A stretch of DNA of 32,091 nt from a virus, in IMG/VR virus record IMGVR_UViG_3300021962_000387, positions 1-32,091 of that record, one strand, 5' to 3'. The notes under the pieces are model-generated. The model was not told where the DNA came from and made no database searches. It saw nothing but the letters and a program-made list of their open reading frames with translations. Below are positions 3,919 to 24,549 of the stretch, in pieces (positions within the stretch are counted from its first letter, which is position 1; every line of letters starts with the position of its first letter). The translations under genes and the position numbers were made by a program.

Positions 3919-3926
3919 TATAAATA
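3919..3926 (+). promoter_or_regulatory. T4-type late promoter (TATAAATA) upstream of gene 67
   Basis: An exact match to the T4 late promoter core recognised by gp55, preceded by a run of T. It lies 24 nt upstream of the ATG at 3951, which leaves room for a short leader with AAGGA at about 3939-3943. It is the first promoter-like element after the fibre genes and probably opens the head operon (67 to 21). Confidence 0.75.
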
Positions 3927-9523: not shown

Positions 9524-11009
9524 TCTAACACTTACGAAAGTCAATGAAGCTATGCTTCGCGTCGAAGGCGATATGGGTATCGCGCGCGAGCTGTCAGAAC
9601 ATTTGACTTTCGAAGTGCCAGGAGCTAAGTTCTCACCGAAGTATAAGTCGCGAGTGTGGGACGGTAAGATCAGACTTTTGAACTCACGAAACATGCAAGT
9701 TTATGCTGGTCTTGTTCAAGAGATTCAGAAGTTCTGTGATGAACGTGATTATACGTTGGATGTTGATCCAGATCTAGTTGTTACTGAGGAGTTTTCTCTT
9801 GCAGAAGCTAAAGAGTTCGCTGATTCCCTTTCTCTGCCGTTTGTTCCACATGATCACCAGCTTCGTGCATTCGCCCTTGCTATACGTCACGCTCGCGGTA
9901 TTCTTATTTCTCCTACTGCAAGTGGTAAGTCACTGATTGCATACTTGATCGTGAGGTTCTACATTGAAACATATCAAAGTCGCATTCTTATTCTTGTGCC
10001 TAATATCTCTCTTGTTCATCAGCTTACCTCTGATTTTGCTGAATATGGTCTGGACGTGGAATCTTACGTCCATAGAGTATTTGGCGGACAAGATAAACGA
10101 TCTGACAGATTAATTGTAATCTCAACATGGCAGTCGGTCTACGAACTTCCGAAGTCATATTTCGATATGTTTGATGTGATCATTGGTGACGAAGCGCATC
10201 TGTTCAAAGCGCAGTCGCTCACTAAGATCATGACAAACGCAACTAACGTGAAGTATCGTTTCGGTATGACAGGAACGTTGGATGGTAGCGTAGTCAATGA
10301 ACTTGTGCTGACTGGACTGTTTGGTCCTACGCATAAGATCATTGATACAAAGGAGCTCATTGATAGTGGAAAACTTGCAGCAATCAAAGTTAAGTGTCTT
10401 GTTCTCAGCCATCCTATCGAGGAACGTAAGAAGTTGGTTGCTGGAACCTACCAAGATGAAGTCGAGCACATTATTTCTTATCAACCTCGCAATCAATTCA
10501 TTCGTAATCTTGCTGTATCTCTCAGGGGGAATACGCTGATTCTTTATGCTTATGTTGAGAAGCACGGTGAAGTTCTGTATGAAATGATTCGCGAAAAAGC
10601 AGGTGAGCGCAAAGTGTTCTTTGTGCATGGTGGAGTTGACGGTGAAGAGCGCGAAGCGATTCGTGGTATCGTTGAAAAGGAAAGCGATGCAATCATCGTC
10701 GCTTCTTACGGAACGTTCAGCACAGGCATAAATATCAAGAACCTTCATAACGTGATATTTGCGAGCCCGACTAAAAGCAGAATCAGAACGCTACAGTCAA
10801 TCGGTCGTGGGCTTCGCATTTCAGATACAAAAGATAGCATGACGCTGTTCGATATCGCTGATGACTTGTCTCATAATAAGAAAAAGAACTACACGCTGAA
10901 TCATCTTATCGAACGAGTCAAGATGTATAGTTCAGAAGGATTTCCTTACGAGCTACACAATATCAAATTGAAGCAACAAGTTTCTGAAAGAAACCTATTC
11001 AATGATTGA
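9513..11009 (+). CDS. uvsW: UvsW DNA/RNA helicase
   Basis: The start is set at ATG 9513, inside the uvsY 3' end, giving 498 residues (T4 UvsW about 503); an in-frame codon further up (9474) would only add residues overlapping uvsY. The N-terminal domain has KYKSRVWDGKIRLLN (about residues 45-60), typical of the family. Superfamily 2 motifs follow: motif I SPTASGKSL (133-141), motif II DEAH (226-229), motif III GMTGT and motif VI QSIGRGLR (428-435). UvsW unwinds R-loops and branched DNA, shutting down origin initiation and favouring recombination-driven replication and fork repair late in infection. The gene is coupled to uvsY and overlaps the next gene by 8 nt. Confidence 0.95.
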   Translation: MVSDLTLTKVNEAMLRVEGDMGIARELSEHLTFEVPGAKFSPKYKSRVWDGKIRLLNSRNMQVYAGLVQEIQKFCDERDYTLDVDPDLVVTEEFSLAEAKEFADSLSLPFVPHDHQLRAFALAIRHARGILISPTASGKSLIAYLIVRFYIETYQSRILILVPNISLVHQLTSDFAEYGLDVESYVHRVFGGQDKRSDRLIVISTWQSVYELPKSYFDMFDVIIGDEAHLFKAQSLTKIMTNATNVKYRFGMTGTLDGSVVNELVLTGLFGPTHKIIDTKELIDSGKLAAIKVKCLVLSHPIEERKKLVAGTYQDEVEHIISYQPRNQFIRNLAVSLRGNTLILYAYVEKHGEVLYEMIREKAGERKVFFVHGGVDGEEREAIRGIVEKESDAIIVASYGTFSTGINIKNLHNVIFASPTKSRIRTLQSIGRGLRISDTKDSMTLFDIADDLSHNKKKNYTLNHLIERVKMYSSEGFPYELHNIKLKQQVSERNLFND

Positions 11010-11448: not shown

Positions 11449-11828
11449 TGATGGATCAGGGCGAAGTTTATTTTCTAAAACTGAATAGCGGCGAAGATCT
11501 TCTTTGCCAGCTCGTCGGTGACGAAGAAGAATATCTTTTCATAACGCAGCCATATCGTGTAGACCTTATGCAATCTACGGCTACAATGACCGTGACTACA
11601 ACTATCATGAGATGGATTCCATTTGAAAGCCTAATGGAAGAAACTATCTGCCTAGACAAGAAAAACGTCTTGACATATATGGAAGTTGATGATATAGTAG
11701 CTATGAAATATCGTAATACTATCAGCGATCAATCTAAGAAAGAGCGCGAAGAAACAATGGATCGTTTGCTGAGGATGAGCAAGTTATTGCAAGAACCTTC
11801 TTCAAACACTTTCGGAACCCTACACTAA
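11448..11828 (+). CDS. Sm-like (LSm/Hfq-fold) small protein
   Basis: The RBS AAGGAG (11440-11445) precedes three candidate starts: GTG 11445, ATG 11448 and ATG 11451. An ATG start is preferred; 11451 has the better RBS spacing and 11448 overlaps the upstream TGA. The first 60 residues (VYFLKLNSGEDLLCQLVGDEEEYLFITQPYRVDLM) have the strand pattern LKLxxGExLxCxLxxxxxxxLxIxxPxxV of Sm-like proteins in T4-like phages, followed by a strand pair with IMRWIPFE and a helical charged tail. A second protein of this type is at 29342. Sm folds bind RNA or act as ring adaptors; the partner here is unknown. It lies directly upstream of gene 55 (stop and start overlap). Confidence 0.55.
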   Translation: MMDQGEVYFLKLNSGEDLLCQLVGDEEEYLFITQPYRVDLMQSTATMTVTTTIMRWIPFESLMEETICLDKKNVLTYMEVDDIVAMKYRNTISDQSKKEREETMDRLLRMSKLLQEPSSNTFGTLH

Positions 11829-12367
11829 TGACCAAAACTAAGCCCAAAAAGCATTATGTAAACAACAAAGAGCTTTATGCTGCTATGGTTGAATACAAAA
11901 CTTTAGTCAACGAGGCTAAAGACGCAGGTAAGCAGAATCCCCGTATTCCAAATTACATTGGTGAGTGTATCATGAAGATCGCTACTCATCTTGCGTATCG
12001 TCCGAACTTTGCGAACTACACGTTCCGCGAAGAAATGATCTCGGATGGTATTGAGAACTGCTTACTGTATATCAATAACTTCGATCCAAGCAAGTCGCAG
12101 AATCCGTTTGCATACTTTACGCAGATCATCTACTTTGCTTTCATTCGACGCATTCAGAAAGAGAAGAAGCATCTTTACACGAAGTATGCTGCTATTGAAT
12201 ACGCTAACATCATGGGTGAGACGTCTGAGTCTCAGGGAGGTGATAGCGGTTCCTACGATACAGATATCAAGTATGGTGAGTGGTCTAAGGAACAGATGGA
12301 AAAATTCATGGCTGATTTTGAAGCAAGTAAAGGTATCAAGCGCGGAGGTAAGAAAGCATCGGCATGA
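11828..12367 (+). CDS. 55: Late transcription sigma factor gp55
   Basis: A 179-residue homologue of T4 gp55 (185 residues), the divergent sigma70-family factor that directs RNA polymerase to TATAAATA late promoters, aided by the sliding clamp gp45. The region-2-like core is visible at about residues 60-120: TFREEMISDGIENCLLYINNFDPSKSQNPFAYFTQIIYFAFIRRIQKEKK. The C-terminus is short and basic (KGIKRGGKKASA), where T4 gp55 carries its clamp-binding tail. The matching late-promoter motifs in this window (3919, 5762, 8425 and two CTAAATA variants) are its expected targets. It overlaps gene 47 by 4 nt (ATGA). Confidence 0.95.
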   Translation: MTKTKPKKHYVNNKELYAAMVEYKTLVNEAKDAGKQNPRIPNYIGECIMKIATHLAYRPNFANYTFREEMISDGIENCLLYINNFDPSKSQNPFAYFTQIIYFAFIRRIQKEKKHLYTKYAAIEYANIMGETSESQGGDSGSYDTDIKYGEWSKEQMEKFMADFEASKGIKRGGKKASA

Positions 12368-13607: not shown

Positions 13608-15307
13608 TTCACTTCACTAAAGTCCGTTGGAAGAACTTTCTTTCAACTGGCAACGCATTCACAGAAATTCAGCTAGACAAAAACGACTCTACCCTCATCG
13701 TTGGTGAAAACGGTGCGGGTAAGTCTACGATGCTTGACGCCCTATGCTTCGGTCTATACGGTAAGCCATTCCGTAAGATCAAGAAGGATCAGCTAATCAA
13801 CTCAGTCAACGGTCGTGACGTTGTTGTTGAAATTGAGTTTTCTGTTCACGATCATCAGTATGTCGTAAGACGTGGAATCAAACCAAGTTTATTTGAAATT
13901 ATAGAAGACGGCAAACTGATTGACCAAGACGCAGCTGCGCGTGACTATCAGGAAATGCTTGAGAAGAACATCCTCAAGCTGAGTATGAAGTCGTTCACGC
14001 AGATTGTGATTCTTGGCTCGTCGTCGTTCGTTCCGTTCATGCAGTTGACAACGAGCGTTCGCCGTGAAGTCATCGAGGATCTGTTGGATATCCGCGTCTT
14101 TTCCTCGATGGCACTTCTTCTCAAAGATCGCGTAGCAACTAATCGCGAGGAGCATAAGCTCAATGAACAAGACATCTCTTACACGCAGGAAGGTATCAAG
14201 GCGCAAGAAAAACTTCGCACAGAGCTTGATGAAAAGCGAGCCGAGAAAATTGAGGAGTTCAACGAGCGTATCAAACAGGCTCAAGAGAGTATTACACGCG
14301 AGGAAGCAAGCGCGGCTGCATTGGGATCTGCCATTGACGAGCTAATGAGTCAGTGTGGTGATCGTGACGCAGTTAGCGCAAGAGTTCAAAAAATCTTGAC
14401 GCTCGAGAAGAGCTTGGAGTCTAAGAAAGCAAACGCCCGTAAAACCATCAAGTTCTATACCGAGAACGATGAGTGTCCTACATGCACACAGCATATTGAT
14501 GATCACATCAAGACGGAGAAGATCAGTGAGAAAGAAAAAGCGATCGAAGAAGTTGAAGCCGCGCTTGAAAAGCTGTCTGACGAGCTCTCAAAAGGAGAAG
14601 ATACTCTTGCGTCAATATCAAAGATACAGCAAGATATATCTCGGAAGCAGAATGATCTTAGCTCTAAACTCAACAACATCAAGGTGTATCAAAAAGAAAT
14701 CTCTGTTTACACCAAAGAAATCGACAGTCTTAACAAAACGGAAGCAACCTATACGCAATCCAACATATCTACCTTACAGTCAGATCTTCAACGGTTTTTG
14801 GGGATAAAGGAACGTATCCTTCGCGATAAGGAGATGTATGAACTGGCTACAGTTATCTTGCGTGATAGTGGCATCAAGTCTCGTATCATCAAGCAATACA
14901 TTCCAGTTATCAACAAGTTGGTGAATAAGTATCTAGCAGCCATGGATTTCTTCGTGAAGTTTGAGCTCAATGAACAGTTCGAAGAAAAGATCTTGTCGCG
15001 TCATCGTGATGACTTCACCTACGATTCATTCAGTGAAGGTGAAAAGATGCGTATCGACTTAGCTTTGTTGTTCACTTGGCGTTCTATCGCTCGTATGAAG
15101 AACAGCGCAAGCACGAATCTACTGATTCTAGACGAAGTGTTCGACGCATCACTTGACGCCAATGGTTGCGACGAGTTCTTAAAGATCATTCATAATCTTG
15201 AGGATACAAACATCTTTGTTATCTCTCATAAAGGTGACGTGCTGCACGATAAGTTCAGCAACATCATTCGCTTTACCAAACAGAAAAACTTTAGCAGGAT
15301 TGTATAA
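13604..15307 (+). CDS. 46: Recombination endonuclease subunit gp46 (Rad50/SbcC-like)
   Basis: A 567-residue SMC-like ATPase, close to T4 gp46 (560). The N-terminal half-site has Walker A GENGAGKST (34-42). A long coiled coil (about residues 180-400) is interrupted by the zinc-hook CPTC (291-294), which dimerises two molecules. The C-terminal half has the ABC signature FSEGEKMRIDLALL (about 475-490) and Walker B LLILDEVFDASLD (about 505-517). With gp47 it resects double-strand ends for recombination-dependent replication. The ATG overlaps the upstream stop, and the stop overlaps the next gene's ATG. Confidence 0.96.
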   Translation: MIHFTKVRWKNFLSTGNAFTEIQLDKNDSTLIVGENGAGKSTMLDALCFGLYGKPFRKIKKDQLINSVNGRDVVVEIEFSVHDHQYVVRRGIKPSLFEIIEDGKLIDQDAAARDYQEMLEKNILKLSMKSFTQIVILGSSSFVPFMQLTTSVRREVIEDLLDIRVFSSMALLLKDRVATNREEHKLNEQDISYTQEGIKAQEKLRTELDEKRAEKIEEFNERIKQAQESITREEASAAALGSAIDELMSQCGDRDAVSARVQKILTLEKSLESKKANARKTIKFYTENDECPTCTQHIDDHIKTEKISEKEKAIEEVEAALEKLSDELSKGEDTLASISKIQQDISRKQNDLSSKLNNIKVYQKEISVYTKEIDSLNKTEATYTQSNISTLQSDLQRFLGIKERILRDKEMYELATVILRDSGIKSRIIKQYIPVINKLVNKYLAAMDFFVKFELNEQFEEKILSRHRDDFTYDSFSEGEKMRIDLALLFTWRSIARMKNSASTNLLILDEVFDASLDANGCDEFLKIIHNLEDTNIFVISHKGDVLHDKFSNIIRFTKQKNFSRIV

Positions 15308-15852
15308 TGGAATTACTAAAAGGCAATGATCCACGACTAAAAGAAACGTGTCCTGAGTTTGATTTCGAGAACGGATACTTCGTTGAGACTGGTGTTTCGA
15401 TGGATGCCAAAGATCTGTATGAACTGCTTCGTGACGAGATGATTAGACACAAAGGTGTTGGTCTATCTGCTCCTCAACTTGGTATTATGGTTCGTGCGTT
15501 CGTGATTGGTAATCCTAACGAACCAGAAAGCATCATTGGTGTGTTCAATCCAATCATTACAGATTATGACGAGGAGCAAGTTGTATATGAAGAAGGATGT
15601 GTCAGCTATCCAGGATTGTTCATCAAGATCAAACGTCCGAGAAGTATTCGTGTGCGATACCGTGGATGGAATGGGGAGGCTGATACCGTCCGCTACGAAG
15701 GTTATACAGCACGAGTCTTCCAGCACGAATACGATCACCTCAATGGAATTACTTATCAGACCCGTGCTAATCGTTATCACCTAGATCAAGCTCGCAATTT
15801 CAAAGCTAAGGCAGAACGTAAACTTGAGAATCTCAAGCGAAAAGCTGGATAA
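15307..15852 (+). CDS. def: Peptide deformylase
   Basis: A 181-residue peptide deformylase, which removes the formyl group from N-terminal Met of new proteins at the ribosome exit. All three family motifs are intact: motif 1 GVGLSAPQLG (50-59), motif 2 EGCVSYPG (96-103, metal ligand Cys98) and motif 3 HEYDH (140-144, metal ligands His140 and His144, catalytic Glu141). Full length and intact motifs argue for an active enzyme. Phage deformylases are known in cyanophages and marine phages, where support of photosystem protein turnover or rapid phage translation has been proposed. It is the last base-overlapping partner of gene 46 and lies upstream of two unassigned genes. The C-terminus has a charged helix (NFKAKAERKLENLKRKAG). 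Confidence 0.95.
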   Translation: MELLKGNDPRLKETCPEFDFENGYFVETGVSMDAKDLYELLRDEMIRHKGVGLSAPQLGIMVRAFVIGNPNEPESIIGVFNPIITDYDEEQVVYEEGCVSYPGLFIKIKRPRSIRVRYRGWNGEADTVRYEGYTARVFQHEYDHLNGITYQTRANRYHLDQARNFKAKAERKLENLKRKAG

Positions 15853-15853
15853 G

Positions 15854-16297
15854 ATGTTCGATGAAGTAGGCGTGAGTAAGGAAAAGCTCCACTCATGTCT
15901 ACGAACTATGGGAACTGAACATCTTTTCAATCAGCAAATGAAAGATATGTGGAAACCTGAGTTTCCTACTATCAACTATTGCTATACAGTCTGTGAGTAT
16001 CTGTATTGGTATGTTTGTCAGGCTACAACTGAGTGGGATATCCGAACAACTGATATTCCTAGCACGCCTGGAATCAAGCACTGGTTTCTACGCCGCACAG
16101 ACGGACAAGTTATAGATTTGACTGCAGATCAGTTTGACAACTACGACGAGATCAACTATAATATGTCTAAACGTTCGGGATTCATTCAGTCCGGCTGTAT
16201 AGGACCGAGTAAACGCGCACGAGTTTTGGCTACACTTATGGGACACGATGAAGAATCTTGGAAGCCTACAGTCAATCCCCTCTACTTCTTCGTATGA
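15854..16297 (+). CDS. Unassigned protein with Cys-His-Asp order (papain/transglutaminase-like?)
   Basis: The ATG at 15854, one base after the deformylase stop, is preferred to an in-frame ATG at 15824 inside deformylase. The 147-residue protein has a Cys-rich helix NYCYTVCEYLYWYV (41-54), then KHWFLRRTDGQVIDLTADQF (75-94), and a C-terminal part with SGFIQSGCIGPSKRARVLATLMG. The order Cys43/Cys47, His76, Asp88 and the HWFL...VIDLT strand pair resemble the Cys-His-Asp core of transglutaminase/NlpC-like folds. It could be a cysteine hydrolase, or a conserved fold without activity. I recognise the HWFL/IDLTADQF pattern from hypothetical phage proteins but no function. It overlaps the next gene by 50 nt. 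Confidence 0.5.
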   Translation: MFDEVGVSKEKLHSCLRTMGTEHLFNQQMKDMWKPEFPTINYCYTVCEYLYWYVCQATTEWDIRTTDIPSTPGIKHWFLRRTDGQVIDLTADQFDNYDEINYNMSKRSGFIQSGCIGPSKRARVLATLMGHDEESWKPTVNPLYFFV

Positions 16298-17513
16298 CGA
16301 TTGGCTGAAAGAGCAGACCTTCAAAAATCATGATACTGAAACGGTTCGTCGAACTATCCACGACGAGCTGAAGTCGTTTGGTGAATTGCCTACAGAAGAA
16401 TACATTCTGTGGCAGAAGTGGGAAGAGGTCAACAACCTCTATCCTATGCAAGAAAGTGTGTTGTTTGGTGAACCAGCATATCTAAACGACAAACACGCAA
16501 TCCTGATTCCACAAGTCAAGCAGCTTATGTGGGACGGCGATAACATCGATGATCTCGAACCAGAGGTTATCTGGACTAATGATCCTGCACATAAATCAAT
16601 CAAGGATCATTGGACAGTGCTGCGCGTGATGATTCATACACAGCAGCATTCTGGTTCTATTGGTCGAGGAATGAACTTTATCATTCGTGATCGAAAGACC
16701 AAGAAGTATCTCGGTGTTATCGCCGTGGCATCAGATTTCCTTGATCTGGGTGCTCGTGACGAAAAGATTGGTTGGACTCGTGATCAGCGAACTATCGAGC
16801 AGCGCATCAAGCACACTGCAGTGTGCTCGACCATCGTGCCAGTTCAACCGTTTGGTTACAACTTCCTTGGTGGAAAGTTGCTCGCGCTTCTATGTTTATC
16901 AGATGTCGTTCAAAACAAGTGGAAGGAACTCTACGGTTCACGTCTTGTTGGTTTGACTACGACTTCGCTCTATGGTAAGGATAAGGGCGGTCATGGAATG
17001 TCGCAGTATGACAATCTGAAACACTGGAAGAAGATGGGATACTCACGCGGCGCATCACCTTTGCGTATGTCTATCGCCACGCGCGAGCTCGCGTATGAGT
17101 GGGCGCATGCGAACATTCCAGAAGATTACTTTCACTATCTGATCGAGAAGGGACCAGACGGTGAACCTGTCGTTCGTGATAGACTGAATCGTTTTCATCA
17201 GAAGATCTATCGTGCGCTGAAAATTCCTGGGAACGTATTCACAAGCGATCACGATCGTGGAATCTACTTCGCTTCGCTCTACACAAACGGATACGAGTTT
17301 CTTCGCAACGATATCAAGGAAGAGCAACTGACTCCTGCTGCAGATTTCACCGTGGACTATCTCACGGCGCTTTGGAAAAAGTATGCAACTCATCGCTATA
17401 CCAAGCTGCAGGAAACTAGCCGCGTCAGCGACTCCATTCTCTATTATGACGACATGAGCTGGCTGGATTGGGCGGCGGCTAGGGAAAAGTATCTAAAAGA
17501 CGTAGGAAGGTAA
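16248..17513 (+). CDS. DUF4338 (DruA)-like protein
   Basis: A 421-residue protein whose centre (about residues 135-275) follows the pattern of the DUF4338/DruA family: GRGMNFIIRDRKTKKYLGVIAVAS, DLGARDEKIGWTRDQRTIEQRI, then STIVPVQPFGYNFLGGKLLALLCLSD, WKELYGSRLVGLTTTSLYGKDKGGHGMSQYDNLKHWKKMGYSRG. Regions on either side are unique; the N-terminal part has HDELKSFGELPTEEYILWQKWEEVNN. DruA is known from the Druantia anti-phage system, and DUF4338 proteins also occur in phages and transposons without a known reaction. The start at ATG 16248 gives a 50-nt overlap with the previous gene; the next in-frame Met is near 16446. It is the last gene of the uvsY-led operon. Family assignment is by pattern memory, and function is unknown. 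Confidence 0.55.
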   Translation: MKNLGSLQSIPSTSSYDDWLKEQTFKNHDTETVRRTIHDELKSFGELPTEEYILWQKWEEVNNLYPMQESVLFGEPAYLNDKHAILIPQVKQLMWDGDNIDDLEPEVIWTNDPAHKSIKDHWTVLRVMIHTQQHSGSIGRGMNFIIRDRKTKKYLGVIAVASDFLDLGARDEKIGWTRDQRTIEQRIKHTAVCSTIVPVQPFGYNFLGGKLLALLCLSDVVQNKWKELYGSRLVGLTTTSLYGKDKGGHGMSQYDNLKHWKKMGYSRGASPLRMSIATRELAYEWAHANIPEDYFHYLIEKGPDGEPVVRDRLNRFHQKIYRALKIPGNVFTSDHDRGIYFASLYTNGYEFLRNDIKEEQLTPAADFTVDYLTALWKKYATHRYTKLQETSRVSDSILYYDDMSWLDWAAAREKYLKDVGR

Positions 17514-19232: not shown

Positions 19233-19261
19233 TTGACAATTCATAGCCAATGTGGTATGAT
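19233..19261 (+). promoter_or_regulatory. Sigma70-like promoter of the CobT-like gene
   Basis: TTGACA (19233-19238), 17-nt spacer containing GCCAATGTGG, TATGAT (19256-19261). The GCCAATGTGGTAT stretch is shared with the promoter at 21599. Confidence 0.85.
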
Positions 19262-19284
19262 AAGTCATAATGAAGGAGACACTC

Positions 19285-21576
19285 ATGGCTGACACACCGA
19301 AACTCGTAGATCCTGGCTCGCTCGACAAGCTCGCGAAGCTGTTGGCTGCTGAGAACATTATGGTCGAGCATCGTCCGATCAAGACAGCCTACTTCGACGT
19401 GAAGAATCGCGTTCTCGCTCTGCCTATGTGGAAGCAGATGACTGAGACGCTGTATCATATGCTTGTGCTCCATGAAGTCGGTCATGCGCTGGAAACTCCC
19501 GCTGACGGCTGGAAGGGCGCGATCGACAAGGTCAAAGAAGAGGAAGAGTCCGCATACGTTGCGCAGACATTCCAAGGCTACCTGAACGTTGTCGAAGACG
19601 CTCGCATTGAGCGCAAGATCAAGAACAAGTTTCCTGGTTCACGTCGTGACTTCCTCGAAGGCTACGACTGGTTGCATGAACAGGACTTCTTCTCTGTTAA
19701 GTCTCGCGAAGTCAATGAGCTGTCGCTGATTGATCGTATCAATCTCTATTTCAAGCTCGGCGCACGTATCCGTATCAAGTTCAACGAAGAAGAAGCTGTG
19801 TTCGTGAAACGAGCAGAGCAGACGCTCACGTTCGACGAAGTCGTAAAGCTGGCTGAAGATCTTCTAGCCTATGCTAAGAAGAAGAAGGAAGAGAACGAAG
19901 ATGAAGAAGAACAGCTGAGCATCACTATCAAGTCTGAAGAAGGTGAAGATGAATCTGATGAAGATTTTGACTTCGATGATGAAGGCGAAGAAGATAGCGA
20001 AGCTTCTTCTGGTTCGGAAGAAGGTGCTAAGACTGAATCAAAGCAGAACGAAGGCGGTGACGGCAAGCTCGGAGGCAGCTCTAGCAAGCCTATGGAAGAA
20101 GCAACGACTGATCAGTCCATGTCTGAGCGCATGGAAGAACTGCTCGATCCTTCTTTGGCTAATCGCACGTTCAGCTATATCCACTTCCCGAAGGACTTGA
20201 CTCACGAAGAGTTCACGGTCAGCTATCGCAAGCTGCTGGATATCATCAACAGCGACTTAGCCAAAGCTAAGGGCGGTGCTGAAGTTATCAGCTATCGTAA
20301 CACGCTGCTGAACAAGTTCCGCTCTGAGAACAACTCCGCCATCAACTATATGGTCAAGGAGTTTGAGCGTAAGAAAGCAGCTCTGTCGTATAGCCGCACG
20401 AAGCAAGCGAAGACTGGTGTTATCGACGTGAACAAGCTGCACAGCTACAAGTTCAACGATGATATCTTCAAGCGCCTGAACATCGAACCTACTGGCAAAA
20501 ATCACGGTGTTGTCGTTGTTCTCGATATGTCTGGTTCTATGTCTGCGAACTATCGTGGTGCGATGGATCAGCTGATCTGTCTTGCTATGTTCTGTCGTCG
20601 CGTTGGTATTCCTCATCGTATCTACGGTTTCACTCAGGTGACCAATCGTTTCTACAAGGAAGATCCGAATCGCTACAAAGCAAAGCAGAACAAGCTCCAG
20701 GCTATCAAAGCGCGACTGAGCAACAAGTCGTTCGTGTTCCCTGATACTGGCTTTGATCTTGTTGAGTTTTTCCACGAGTCTATGTCGTTGAAGGACTTCA
20801 ACGCGATGGTTGGCACGTTGCTCATTTCATCGAAGATGATGGAAATGGACATGAACGAAATGATCGACGGTCAATACATTCGTTACTGGATCAACGAAAG
20901 AATGCAAGCTGATTCTTGGTCTACTGCGTTCGAATATCTCGGTCTCGGTGGAACTCCGCTCAATGATGCGATCCTCGTGTCGCGTGATCTGATGGCTAAG
21001 TTCCGCAAGGAAAAGAATATTCAGATCATGAACTTCGTGTGCATCACCGACGGCGAGAGCAATCACTCGTCGTTCTATCGTGCCCATTCGAATGGTGGTC
21101 ATAATAACCATTATGAATCGCTTCCGTTTGGTGGTTCAAAGCACGTGTCGATCTTCGTAGACGAAGAATCTCGTATTCAGACTTCTATGAAGTTCAATAA
21201 TGCGCATGAGATCACTGGTATGTTGGCGCGCACTGTTCGTCAGTCTCAAGATGCTAACTTCGTTGGCTTCTATATCGTAGGTGGTTCGTATGACGTTCGT
21301 CACGTTTCGTATCGCTACCTGAGCTACACCGAAGGTGTTGCGTTCCAAGAGAAGTGGAAGAAGAACAAGAGCGCAGTGATCCCTAACATGCTCAACTTCG
21401 ATGAGTTCTATATCATCAACGGTGGTCGTAATCTTCGTAGCCAACAAGCTGCGTTCGATGAAGCCAACAATGATATGAAGAAGGGTCAGCTCGCCAGAGC
21501 GTTCATTTCCGCCCAGAATAAGCGTGGTGCAAGCCGTGCAGTTCTCGGTAAATTCATCGAAAAGATCGCTGCATGA
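19285..21576 (+). CDS. CobT-like VWA protein with N-terminal HEXXH metalloprotease motif
   Basis: ATG 19285 is chosen because AAGGAG lies 8-13 nt before it; an ATG at 19270 precedes that RBS. The 763 residues divide into three parts. The N-terminal domain has HEVGH (63-67) plus a downstream VVEDARIER, matching a zinc-peptidase HEXXH...E pattern. A low-complexity acidic linker follows (about 200-260). The C-terminal von Willebrand A domain has the MIDAS motif DMSGS (414-418) and TDGES (about 590). The gene is paired with the AAA+ gene at 21871. Such pairs are annotated cobT/cobS in cyanophages after cobaltochelatase subunits, but resemble general MoxR/VWA systems. A role in remodelling or cutting a host or phage protein complex is plausible; cobalamin synthesis is not shown. 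Confidence 0.85.
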   Translation: MADTPKLVDPGSLDKLAKLLAAENIMVEHRPIKTAYFDVKNRVLALPMWKQMTETLYHMLVLHEVGHALETPADGWKGAIDKVKEEEESAYVAQTFQGYLNVVEDARIERKIKNKFPGSRRDFLEGYDWLHEQDFFSVKSREVNELSLIDRINLYFKLGARIRIKFNEEEAVFVKRAEQTLTFDEVVKLAEDLLAYAKKKKEENEDEEEQLSITIKSEEGEDESDEDFDFDDEGEEDSEASSGSEEGAKTESKQNEGGDGKLGGSSSKPMEEATTDQSMSERMEELLDPSLANRTFSYIHFPKDLTHEEFTVSYRKLLDIINSDLAKAKGGAEVISYRNTLLNKFRSENNSAINYMVKEFERKKAALSYSRTKQAKTGVIDVNKLHSYKFNDDIFKRLNIEPTGKNHGVVVVLDMSGSMSANYRGAMDQLICLAMFCRRVGIPHRIYGFTQVTNRFYKEDPNRYKAKQNKLQAIKARLSNKSFVFPDTGFDLVEFFHESMSLKDFNAMVGTLLISSKMMEMDMNEMIDGQYIRYWINERMQADSWSTAFEYLGLGGTPLNDAILVSRDLMAKFRKEKNIQIMNFVCITDGESNHSSFYRAHSNGGHNNHYESLPFGGSKHVSIFVDEESRIQTSMKFNNAHEITGMLARTVRQSQDANFVGFYIVGGSYDVRHVSYRYLSYTEGVAFQEKWKKNKSAVIPNMLNFDEFYIINGGRNLRSQQAAFDEANNDMKKGQLARAFISAQNKRGASRAVLGKFIEKIAA

Positions 21577-21598
21577 TGATTTTGGCGGGGAAAGGGGC

Positions 21599-21627
21599 TT
21601 GTCAATTCTCCGCCAATGTGGTATCAT
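21599..21627 (+). promoter_or_regulatory. Sigma70-like promoter
   Basis: TTGTCA (21599-21604), 17-nt spacer with CGCCAATGTGG, TATCAT (21622-21627). It precedes the 50-residue gene at 21658. Confidence 0.8.
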
Positions 21628-21657
21628 AAGTATATGATGAGAAAAGGAGATGGCGTC

Positions 21658-21810
21658 ATGTTCAAGGTAACTTATACTCTCAAGGGCGAAAACAAGCTGT
21701 TGACGGATGAATCCGCCACGTTTCGTTATCTGAAGGATGCGTTCACGTTCATGCGTCTCCTGATGAATTCTGCTGGGCTAGTTGGTAAGCCCACTATTGA
21801 GCGCATGTGA
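21658..21810 (+). CDS. Small unknown protein between the CobT-like and CobS-like genes
   Basis: A 50-residue protein with ATG 21658 after AAAAGGAG. The sequence MFKVTYTLKGENKLLTDESATF is a likely beta-hairpin, followed by a helix (LKDAFTFMRLLMNSAG) and a short tail. It has its own promoter and ends just before the next one, so it is a one-gene cassette separating the VWA and AAA+ genes. Function unknown. Confidence 0.55.
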   Translation: MFKVTYTLKGENKLLTDESATFRYLKDAFTFMRLLMNSAGLVGKPTIERM

Positions 21811-21811
21811 C

Positions 21812-21840
21812 TTGACAATCAAGTCGCCCTGTGGTATAAT
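21812..21840 (+). promoter_or_regulatory. Consensus sigma70 promoter of the CobS-like gene
   Basis: TTGACA (21812-21817), 17-nt spacer, TATAAT (21835-21840): a perfect bacterial housekeeping promoter, predicted to be the strongest in the window. Confidence 0.9.
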
Positions 21841-21870
21841 ATATTATATGATGAGGAAAGGTGATAGGCT

Positions 21871-23055
21871 ATGAAGGACGGTCAGAAGAAGTTTCTCGAG
21901 CTTGCTGTTGCTAAGTTCGGTGCAGGTAATACGGTTGATCGTAACGAGATCGTTGCGTTTGCTGAAGAACAGGGTGTTCGTGGCGTCGACTTCTGGTGGA
22001 TGATCAAGCCAGAGTATCGCGTGACTCGTGGTTTCTATCGTATTCCTGGCGGTGAATCTCATGTTGAGATGGCTGCTGATATCGTTCCTATCTCTATCCG
22101 TCGTGAGACTCCTGTGGCTCCCAAGAAGTTTGATCCGAATGCAGTTTCCGAGCATGACTATGCTCAGGTTCCGGCTAAGGATAAGCACTACGTTCCGTTC
22201 GGTGAATTCAAGATGATTGAGAAGATCGTTGCTTCTGGCAAGTTCTTCCCTGTGTTCATCTCTGGTCACTCAGGCAACGGCAAGACGTTCATGGTCGAGC
22301 AGGTGTGTGCCAAGGTTAAGCGTCCGATGATTCGTGTTCAGATGTCGCGTGAGACTGACGAGGACGATCTCATCGGTGGCTTCCGTCTCATCGACGGTGA
22401 GACTAAGTTCATGAAGGGTCCAGTGCTTCGCGCGATGGAGATCGGTGCGTTGCTTCTCATCGACGAAGCTGACCGTGCTGATCCTGGCAAAGCGATGTGC
22501 TTGCAGGGTATCCTCGAAGGCAAGCCCTACTACATGAAGAAGACTGGTGAGATTGTCGAAGCTGCTCATGGCTTCAATGTGATTGTGACTGCTAACACGA
22601 AGGGTCGTGGTTCTGACGACGGTCGTTATGTTGCGGCTACGATGCTCGACGATGCTTGGCTTGAGCGCTTCCCGATCACTATCGAACAGGAATATCCGAC
22701 TGCTGCTATCGAGAAAAAGATCTTGACAAACTATCTCAGTGATGATACAATTACTGAAGATGATAAGGCGCTCATTGAGCATCTTACTGTTTGGTCGGAA
22801 ATCATCCGCAAGACTTTCACTGAAGGCGCGATTGACGAGCTCATCTCAACTCGTCGCCTTGTTCATATCGCACAAACGTATCGCATGATCGGCGATCGCA
22901 TGAAGGCTATCCGTTTGTGCATCAATCGTTTCGACGAAGAGACGAAGACTGCGTTCCTCGATCTCTATGCTAAGGTTGATCCTACGATCAATCCCGTCCC
23001 CGAGACTCCGGCTGCTCCACCCGCAGCGGAGAACACTCAGGAAGTTTCTTTCTGA
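21871..23055 (+). CDS. cobS: CobS/MoxR-like AAA+ ATPase
   Basis: A 394-residue AAA+ protein. The N-terminal 60 residues form a small winged-helix-like domain (VAKFGAGNTVDRNEIVAFAEEQG). The ATPase core has Walker A GHSGNGKT (132-139), Walker B LLLIDEAD (Asp198, Glu199), sensor 1 in VTANTKG and an arginine-finger region (WLERFPITIEQEYP). A helical lid and a Pro/Ala-rich tail follow (PVPETPAAPPAAENT). CobS is the ATPase of cobaltochelatase and homologues are common in T4-like cyanophages. Here the partner is the metalloprotease/VWA protein at 19285, so the pair may work as a MoxR-VWA-type remodeller. The RBS is AAAGGTG before ATG 21871. Confidence 0.88.
   Translation: MKDGQKKFLELAVAKFGAGNTVDRNEIVAFAEEQGVRGVDFWWMIKPEYRVTRGFYRIPGGESHVEMAADIVPISIRRETPVAPKKFDPNAVSEHDYAQVPAKDKHYVPFGEFKMIEKIVASGKFFPVFISGHSGNGKTFMVEQVCAKVKRPMIRVQMSRETDEDDLIGGFRLIDGETKFMKGPVLRAMEIGALLLIDEADRADPGKAMCLQGILEGKPYYMKKTGEIVEAAHGFNVIVTANTKGRGSDDGRYVAATMLDDAWLERFPITIEQEYPTAAIEKKILTNYLSDDTITEDDKALIEHLTVWSEIIRKTFTEGAIDELISTRRLVHIAQTYRMIGDRMKAIRLCINRFDEETKTAFLDLYAKVDPTINPVPETPAAPPAAENTQEVSF
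22723..22751 (+). promoter_or_regulatory. Possible internal promoter inside the CobS-like gene
   Basis: CTTGACA (-35 at 22723-22728), 17-nt spacer, TACAAT (22746-22751), inside coding sequence. It fits the same rule as the intergenic promoters and could raise expression of the winged-helix and S21 genes downstream, neither of which has a visible promoter of its own. It may also be chance. Confidence 0.4.
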
Positions 23056-23691: not shown

Positions 23692-24549
23692 ATGGCAGCA
23701 ATTGAAATTTCAGTATCTATTGAAGAACTACGCAAAAAGAAGATCTTCGTCGCTACGCCAATGTATGGCGGTATCTGTGGTGGACAGTATTGTAAGTCAA
23801 CAGCTGATCTTGCTATGCTGGCTGCTCAGTATGGTATGGACGTTCGCTTCTTCTATCTCTTCAATGAATCACTCATTACTCGTGCACGAAACTATCTCGT
23901 GGACGAATTTTTGCGTTCAGACTGCACTCACCTGATGTTCATTGACTCGGACATTGGCTTTGACCCGAACGACGTTATCGCTCTTTCTGTTATCGCAGAA
24001 GAAGGATCAGACAAGCATATTGTATGCGGTCCTTATCCAAAGAAGTGTATCGCTTGGGAAAAGATCAAGCGCGCAGTCGATAAGGGATTTGCAGACAAAG
24101 ATCCTGGCGTCCTTGAAAAGTATGTTGGCGACTATGTCTTCAATCCAAAAGAAGGAACTGGATCTATCGCTCTCGATGAACCAGTTGAAGTTCTTGAAGG
24201 CGGCACTGGCTTCATGATGATTCAACGCGCTGCGTTGGAAAAGTTCCAGGCTGCATATCCACAATACATGTATAAGCCAGATCACGTTCGCACAGAACAC
24301 TTCGATGGTTCGCGCGAGATCCTTATGGCTTTCCAAGCTGAAGTTGATCCAGCATCTAAGCGATATCTATCAGAAGACTACTGGTTCTGCCAAAAGGCTT
24401 GGGATATCGGTATCAAAACTTGGTTGTGTCCTTGGATGAAGCTCCAGCACATGGGTTCTTATGTGTTTGGCGGTTCGCTTATTGATCTGGCTCAGATTGG
24501 TGCTGGCGCTACTGCTGACGAGAGCTCTAAACCAAAGAAGCTGAAATGA
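23692..24549 (+). CDS. GT-A-type glycosyltransferase
   Basis: A 285-residue protein with a nucleotide-sugar glycosyltransferase core: KKIFVATPMYGG at the start of the first strand (17-27), RARNYLVDEFLRSDCTHLMFIDSDIGF with the metal-binding DSD at 85-87, and EGGTGFMMIQRAALEKF later. Near the C-terminus, LSEDYWFCQKAWDIG carries a likely acidic catalytic region. Such enzymes in T4-like phages modify phage DNA, virion proteins or host surface sugars; the substrate cannot be read from the sequence. The RBS is TTTGGAG before ATG 23692. The lysine-rich tail (SSKPKKLK) is probably flexible. Confidence 0.8.
   Translation: MAAIEISVSIEELRKKKIFVATPMYGGICGGQYCKSTADLAMLAAQYGMDVRFFYLFNESLITRARNYLVDEFLRSDCTHLMFIDSDIGFDPNDVIALSVIAEEGSDKHIVCGPYPKKCIAWEKIKRAVDKGFADKDPGVLEKYVGDYVFNPKEGTGSIALDEPVEVLEGGTGFMMIQRAALEKFQAAYPQYMYKPDHVRTEHFDGSREILMAFQAEVDPASKRYLSEDYWFCQKAWDIGIKTWLCPWMKLQHMGSYVFGGSLIDLAQIGAGATADESSKPKKLK

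Follow-up and report, generated by a model that had tools for sequence, protein, structure and literature searches.

A predicted zincin metallopeptidase-VWA protein and its MoxR-type ATPase partner in a T4-like phage are probably not cobalamin synthesis proteins

MoxR-type ATPases encoded beside a protein with a VWA domain have been described in several settings, which bear on the two genes considered here, a metallopeptidase-VWA gene and a MoxR/CobS-like AAA+ ATPase gene of the viral record IMGVR_UViG_3300021962_000387. The whole stretch analysed, 32,091 nucleotides, is called the window below. The closest described genes are those annotated in cyanophages as 'peptidase' (PHROG 459) and 'CobS/porphyrin biosynthetic protein' (PHROG 249), for example S-PM2p119/p120, which belong to the same families and stand in the same order at the same site, between gp46 and gp45/gp44. 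The window peptidase-VWA protein is about 28-38% identical to its cyanophage counterparts in the rows listed, and the window differs from them by an open reading frame (ORF) of 50 residues between the two genes, which occupies the same place in 23/23 close loci (59-100% identity) and was found in none of the distant ones. The same logic, a MoxR ATPase adjoining a vWA protein that begins with a metallopeptidase domain, is already in print for group 2.2 jumbo phages, in a passage that proposes a role in virion assembly (PMC7824862). Our peptidase-VWA profile matched nothing in the jumbo phage Atu_ph07, a search that had no positive control, the published example proteins not having been located. 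The CobS and CobT subunits of the aerobic cobaltochelatase likewise combine a MoxR-clade ATPase with an acidic linker and a C-terminal VWA domain. They differ in that genuine CobT domains lack HExxH, a control CobT passes the curated cut-off and both subunits work with CobN, whereas the phage pair has HExxH, fails these cut-offs and came with no CobN that we could find. Pairs of the NorQ/NorD and CbbQ/CbbO type are not known to carry a peptidase domain; the phage ATPase matches NorQ and CbbQ, besides midasin and CobS, and the phage VWA fold is closest to that of NorD, the partner of the MoxR ATPase NorQ.

The pair itself is therefore known and widespread, as the 'peptidase' and 'cobS' of T4-like cyanophages. 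In the phage collection, 463 records matched the peptidase-VWA protein and 835 the ATPase, and the record tallies were equal for both proteins under Synechococcus (365), Cyanophage (61) and Prochlorococcus (24), tallies rather than individual records being compared. Cyanophage cobS is called a core gene in a passage of PMC3037559 and is entered under 'Vitamin B12 synthesis' in a list of PMC9983427; surveys routinely include it among the auxiliary metabolic genes for B12. A search of the open-access literature found no experimental test of either protein and no paper settling the function of cobS. The present data favour the 'peptidase' label over cobT for the partner gene, and the interest of the pair lies in its common functional label, 'cobS', which is probably misleading when read as vitamin B12 synthesis. 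We consider it rather probable that the phage pair combines a MoxR-type AAA+ motor for protein remodelling with a zinc metallopeptidase as its co-factor, and that it does not serve cobalamin synthesis.

The metallopeptidase-VWA protein (Table 1) was read from the ATG at 19285; another in-frame ATG lies at 19270. It was aligned in 79 rows, comprising the window and 78 loci, the truncated L002 and L030 being left out. An HExxH motif alone proves little, because one also turns up in 710 of 20,000 shuffled versions of this 763-residue protein; its significance comes from its conservation in 79/79 rows. Asp105, next to the conserved Glu104, is also invariant in all of these rows. The family thus carries the gluzincin signature, HExxH followed by a conserved downstream glutamate, and the combination of HExxH with N..ED.R[IV][ED] was found as well in 4/4 distant phage records (Mosig, DLP6, S-PM2 and XG4) and in 18/18 genome-contig loci long enough to include the N-domain. 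For profiles, the sets were thinned at 88% identity, leaving 47 rows for the whole VWA protein, 47 for the N-domain and 36 for the ATPase. Identity to the window protein ranged from 30 to 76% across the thinned 47-row set, and mean column identity was 51% for the N-domain vs 37% for the whole protein. A scan of the genome collection for cellular relatives gave 19 loci, mostly from metagenome-assembled genomes and with the phage status of their contigs unsorted, none of which was clearly cellular.

An AlphaFold2 model of residues 1-200 was obtained with a predicted local distance difference test score (pLDDT) of 89.1 and a predicted template modelling score (pTM) of 0.84. It contains three strands, a helix bearing HExxH (residues 54-70) and a second long helix bearing Glu104 (residues 90-115). 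The first 10 Foldseek rows were minigluzincins and ArdC, as were 11 of the top 12, with probabilities of 0.54-1.00. VIA-align ranked ZMPSTE24 first (Z 8.0, root mean square deviation 3.5 Å over 144 residues); BlaR1 (Z 7.0), ArdC (6.9) and BepA (6.6) came next, ahead of minigluzincins and IrrE. By title or known fold, 22 of its top 25 rows are zincin-type. ZMPSTE24 and BepA belong to family M48, and BlaR1 to M56. With these gluzincins, and with the minigluzincins selecase, abylysin and jannalysin, the phage N-domain, as a predicted model only, shares the fold and an HExxH with a glutamate on a later helix; aligned rows show sequence identities of about 9-21%. A search of solved structures with the profile of the whole peptidase-VWA protein gave chance-level matches only. 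Residues 1-200 are thus predicted to adopt a gluzincin-like zincin fold, on fold matches of moderate strength.

The acidic linker that follows is unstructured in the full-length model (pLDDT 77.2, pTM 0.66). Asp and Glu make up 23 of the 40 residues from 201 to 240, and the family median net charge over the region is -26. The metal ion-dependent adhesion site (MIDAS) of the VWA domain, D414-x-S416-x-S418, T557 and D589, is identical in 79/79 rows, and the best Foldseek matches of this domain are NorD VWA domains bound to NorQ. CobT structures (9uka and relatives) were absent from the Foldseek rows listed, to which we attach no weight. The ATPase alignment comprised 77 rows, three short fragments being left out; with its intact Walker motifs the protein appears to be a MoxR-clade AAA+ ATPase, an assignment made from its matches and not from the helix-2 insert. 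An earlier note on this DNA, written by a model from the sequence alone, had described the HEVGH with Glu64, a downstream Glu, the acidic linker and the VWA domain with MIDAS, as well as the MoxR/CobS-like partner with its Walker B Glu199. All were recovered as described, the motif residues of the first protein being invariant in 79/79 rows. Its suggestion of a zincin fold at the N-terminus also held in the model, with Glu104 as the candidate third ligand.

Table 1. Coordinates of the gene pair, its motifs and domains, and adjoining elements in the window
Feature	Position	Strand	Observation
Sigma-70-type promoter of peptidase-VWA gene	19233..19261	+	11/12 consensus, TTGACA-17-TATGAT
Metallopeptidase-VWA protein, 763 residues	19285..21576	+	full-length match to PHROG 459 'peptidase', E 4.7e-182
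Zincin-like N-domain, about residues 12-200	19318..19884	+	AlphaFold2 model; zincin metallopeptidases matched by both Foldseek and VIA-align
HEVGH, residues 63-67	19471..19485	+	two zinc-ligand candidates and putative catalytic Glu64; H63, E64, H67 in 79/79 rows
Glu104 in N-V-V-E-D-A-R-I-E	19594..19596	+	candidate third zinc ligand (putative role); 79/79 rows
Acidic low-confidence linker, about residues 201-270	19885..20094	+	residues 218-267 fall under pLDDT 50
VWA domain, about residues 407-712	20503..21420	+	MIDAS intact; best Foldseek matches NorD VWA domains
Sigma-70-type promoter-like site before small ORF	21599..21627	+	10/12 consensus
Small ORF between both genes, 50 residues	21658..21810	+	own promoter-like site upstream
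Sigma-70-type promoter of AAA+ ATPase gene	21812..21840	+	12/12 consensus, TTGACA-17-TATAAT
MoxR/CobS-like AAA+ ATPase, 394 residues	21871..23055	+	PHROG 249 'porphyrin biosynthesis', E 7.5e-102; AAA_5, E 1.4e-21
Walker A GHSGNGKT, residues 132-139	22264..22287	+	core residues invariant, 77/77 rows
Walker B LLIDE, residues 195-199	22453..22467	+	D198, E199 invariant, 77/77 rows
Winged-helix protein after ATPase gene, 92 residues	23074..23352	+	Pfam HTH_39, E 0.00039, slightly under cut-off

In 79/80 viral loci the ATPase gene lies downstream of the VWA gene and in the same orientation, the 80th ending at a contig edge, so that a VWA protein with MIDAS linked to a MoxR ATPase, as in MoxR-VWA pairs, is the rule in this family. 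Gaps between the two genes ranged from 32 to 701 bases in the viral loci, window included. Among the 23 distant loci (L082-L104), the ATPase was present in 18, and four of the five misses stop at a contig edge within the VWA gene, the fifth being L101, described below. One genome-contig locus (L092) carries the ATPase on the opposite strand. In Pseudoalteromonas phage XG4, the VWA domain comes first and has an ORF of its own, with the peptidase ORF next and the ATPase last. A frameshift could not swap this order, and peptidase and VWA domain are therefore separable modules. The XG4 ATPase (L085:8170-9454) is itself split over two overlapping frames, through a frameshift or a sequencing error in an unverified record.

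The earlier note had assigned a strong promoter to each gene, and both are conserved in close relatives: a sigma-70-type promoter matching at least 10/12 consensus positions lies upstream of the VWA gene in 22/22 and of the ATPase gene in 24/24 close sequences with sufficient upstream DNA (window included). Promoters are weaker in the distant set, where the corresponding figures were 19/53 and 30/56. The late motif NATAAATA was found upstream of neither the VWA gene (0/22) nor the ATPase gene (0/24) in the close sequences; in the distant set, 2/53 have a late motif before the VWA gene. Exact copies of TATAAATA, a T4-type late promoter motif, occur in the window at 3919, 5762 and 8425, beside structural genes, three copies against 0.73 expected in Markov resamples, of which 4/300 reach three. 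A fourth NATAAATA, at 10727, lies within the helicase gene. The window also encodes a gp55-like late sigma factor (11828-12367). For DLP6, a passage of PMC5349666 reports phage promoters, phage-specific and not sigma-70, at two sites: one ahead of the peptidase gene, the other ahead of the gene that comes just before the CobS-like ATPase. The open-access transcriptome literature that we searched yielded no infection timing for cobS or the peptidase.

In the mechanism that we propose, the ATPase (21871-23055) would form a hexamer, as its clade suggests. The VWA domain would bind the target through its MIDAS and, by way of the acidic linker, deliver it to the motor and the peptidase. Once the target had been remodelled, the gluzincin-like N-domain, given its invariant HExxH and Glu, would cleave it to a limited extent. 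Because its promoters are of host type and it is located among replication genes, the pair probably works no later than the period of DNA replication, either ahead of it or while it is under way. The target could be a host protein or the phage's own replication or transcription machinery. A bolder version, possible but to be held tentatively, is that an early-expressed ATP-driven metalloprotease, with 'cobS' as its motor and not as a vitamin B12 gene, remodels and cuts a specific host protein during takeover, that it is carried by nearly all marine T4-like cyanophages and by relatives whose hosts are SAR11 and other bacteria, and that the 50-residue protein is an adaptor or inhibitor in the window lineage. 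If the pair is indeed a real zincin with a protein remodeller, inferences on B12 drawn from cobS counts in viromes would lose support. Two core genes of phages that abound in the ocean would then amount to a protease with a searchable target.

Several observations weigh against this interpretation. The Foldseek E-values are weak, the best being 0.075 and 0/91 matches reaching 0.001, and VIA-align itself warns that Z values of 5-8 can reflect common arrangements. Z values being modest, the argument therefore leans jointly on fold, motif and invariance, and both the His63/His67/Glu104 metal site and the peptidase activity are candidates only. TIGR01651 (CobT) still matches the peptidase-VWA protein weakly (E 0.00022), and the acidic linker and VWA domain resemble those of CobT. 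In L101:3-899, the peptidase ORF breaks off within the linker. Neither a VWA nor an AAA+ gene was found in the 7.9 kb that follow, and the genome bin yielded no such ATPase; this locus may be a fragment or a stand-alone peptidase. Finally, the promoters reported here are consensus matches, and a passage of PMC2984593 describes cyanophage genes that have an early as well as a late promoter, so that early expression of the pair is suggested and not established by them.

The alternative that survives best, although we judge it unlikely, is that the pair serves virion assembly, MoxR and VWA acting as a chaperone that remodels structural proteins and the peptidase as a maturation protease that trims them. 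Such a role is proposed for the analogous group 2.2 jumbo-phage pair, with Acidianus two-tailed virus as precedent, in the passage cited above (PMC7824862), and the T4-like gene context with hsp20 nearby would suit it. However, Methylophilales phage Melnitz-2, whose major capsid protein is 62% identical and which has the same gene order and its own prohead core serine protease, gave no peptidase-VWA or AAA+ profile match in its whole genome. A related head is thus built without the pair, which therefore is not required by such a capsid, and the virion-assembly role is weakened. The late motif TATAAATA, moreover, precedes structural genes (at the three positions given above) and not the pair. 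Early-made factors can still act on virion proteins, but sigma-70-type promoters without a late promoter, together with a syntenic relative lacking the pair, lean away from an obligatory role in assembly.

A second alternative, which we regard as improbable, retains the zincin fold but makes it catalytically idle: the domain would serve the MoxR/VWA motor only by binding targets or through a structural zinc. The phage hydrolase activity is putative, and CobT could offer a parallel. Among 25 genuine CobT loci, a preset number taken from the 53 genomes with a match among 200 sampled in one phylum, HExxH was found within the CobT domain in 0/25 (one ORF has HEPAH upstream of the domain), and the CobT consensus VEQARVE aligns with the phage-family VEDARIE. 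Comparison of the full phage-family profile with these 25 CobT gave a probability of 86 over the ED.RIE helix. The phage zincin domain may therefore have a degenerate relative in genuine CobT; the N-domain compared alone does not confirm this, with a probability of only 0.5%, which also counts against the idle-domain explanation. Against it, too, stand the invariance of Glu64, at the position of the catalytic base, with both histidines and Glu104, and the higher column identity of the N-domain than of the whole protein.

The last alternative is that the proteins act as CobST-like subunits of a cobaltochelatase, using the CobN of the host, and so raise cobalamin levels. Hijacking of CobN by cyanophage CobS/CobT is proposed in a passage of a 2021 paper, which holds that cyanophage cobT was 'mistakenly annotated as a peptidase' (PMC8651126). 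The phage ATPase is 24% identical to a CobS adjoining genuine CobT, and the full-family profile comparison over the ED.RIE helix points the same way. Curated models argue otherwise. The peptidase-VWA protein scored 20.1 bits with TIGR01651 against a cut-off of 759.05 (control CobT, 960) and the ATPase 62.6 bits with TIGR01650 (CobS) against 558.55. The CobT N-domain model PF06213 gave no match to the peptidase-VWA protein at E<=1, and CobT_C (PF11775) gave 12.2 bits against a cut-off of 21; control CobT passes both. CobS_N, present in 2/2 genuine CobS, is absent from the phage ATPase. HExxH is present in 79/79 phage rows vs 0/25 CobT domains. No CobN was found in 19 virus records (window included, many of them fragments) or in 4 further complete phages, a search confined to phage records, with host CobN outside it, and positive in 5/14 control genomes; the absence of a CobN-like chelatase that the earlier note had reported thus extends to all 23 phage records. 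A 2016 review, in the passage concerned, states that cyanophage cobS is not a true homologue of bacterial cobS, and nonetheless discusses cobalamin (PMC5083919). Given the cut-offs, the CobN search and the comparison with 25 genuine CobT, we reject cobalamin synthesis as the best explanation and consider it very improbable. Of the earlier note's proposal of a remodelling machine rather than cobalamin synthesis, the non-orthology to CobS and CobT stands (scores far below cut-offs, no CobN), and the unfolding and cleavage of a host target that it suggested are putative. The idea is not new, the jumbo-phage pair having been published. Phage proteins called 'CobT' are of more than one kind: that of Vibrio phage ICP2 (L130:1883-3625) passes CobT_C and has HECYH near its N-terminus and no ED.RIE motif, and that of Nican01 (L131) has no HExxH.

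PHROG and profile matches of the encoded proteins identify the window as a fragment of a T4-like phage. Scaffold and major head protein genes (PHROG 237 and 138) are followed by UvsY, a UvsW-type helicase, the late sigma factor gp55, gp47/gp46 and the pair, with the sliding clamp, clamp loader, translation repressor, Hsp20 and endolysin downstream. The head protein is 64% identical to that of Pelagibacter phage Mosig, 62% to those of Methylophilales phages and about 62% to those of cyanophages. The 92-residue winged-helix protein after the ATPase gene is present in 17/23 close loci and 6 distant ones, and its membership of the module is uncertain. A PADLOC scan of the pair for defence and anti-defence systems gave no match to the peptidase-VWA protein and weak IetA matches only to the ATPase (best E 0.00014). 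Upstream of the pair, a DruA-like (DUF4338) protein is encoded at 16248-17513 (+; Pfam E 3.5e-15, PADLOC DruA E 1.7e-12); a DUF4338 protein occupies the matching position in Pelagibacter phage Mosig, a homologue of a defence-system component being kept in phages. A peptide deformylase (15307-15852, +; PHROG 2890, E 1e-37), also upstream of the pair, occurs at about the same position in Mosig and Melnitz. The gene at 23692-24549 (+), which separates the pair from the sliding clamp gene, matches PHROG 1574 (E 5.1e-61), whose label gives no function, and may encode a glycosyltransferase-like protein.

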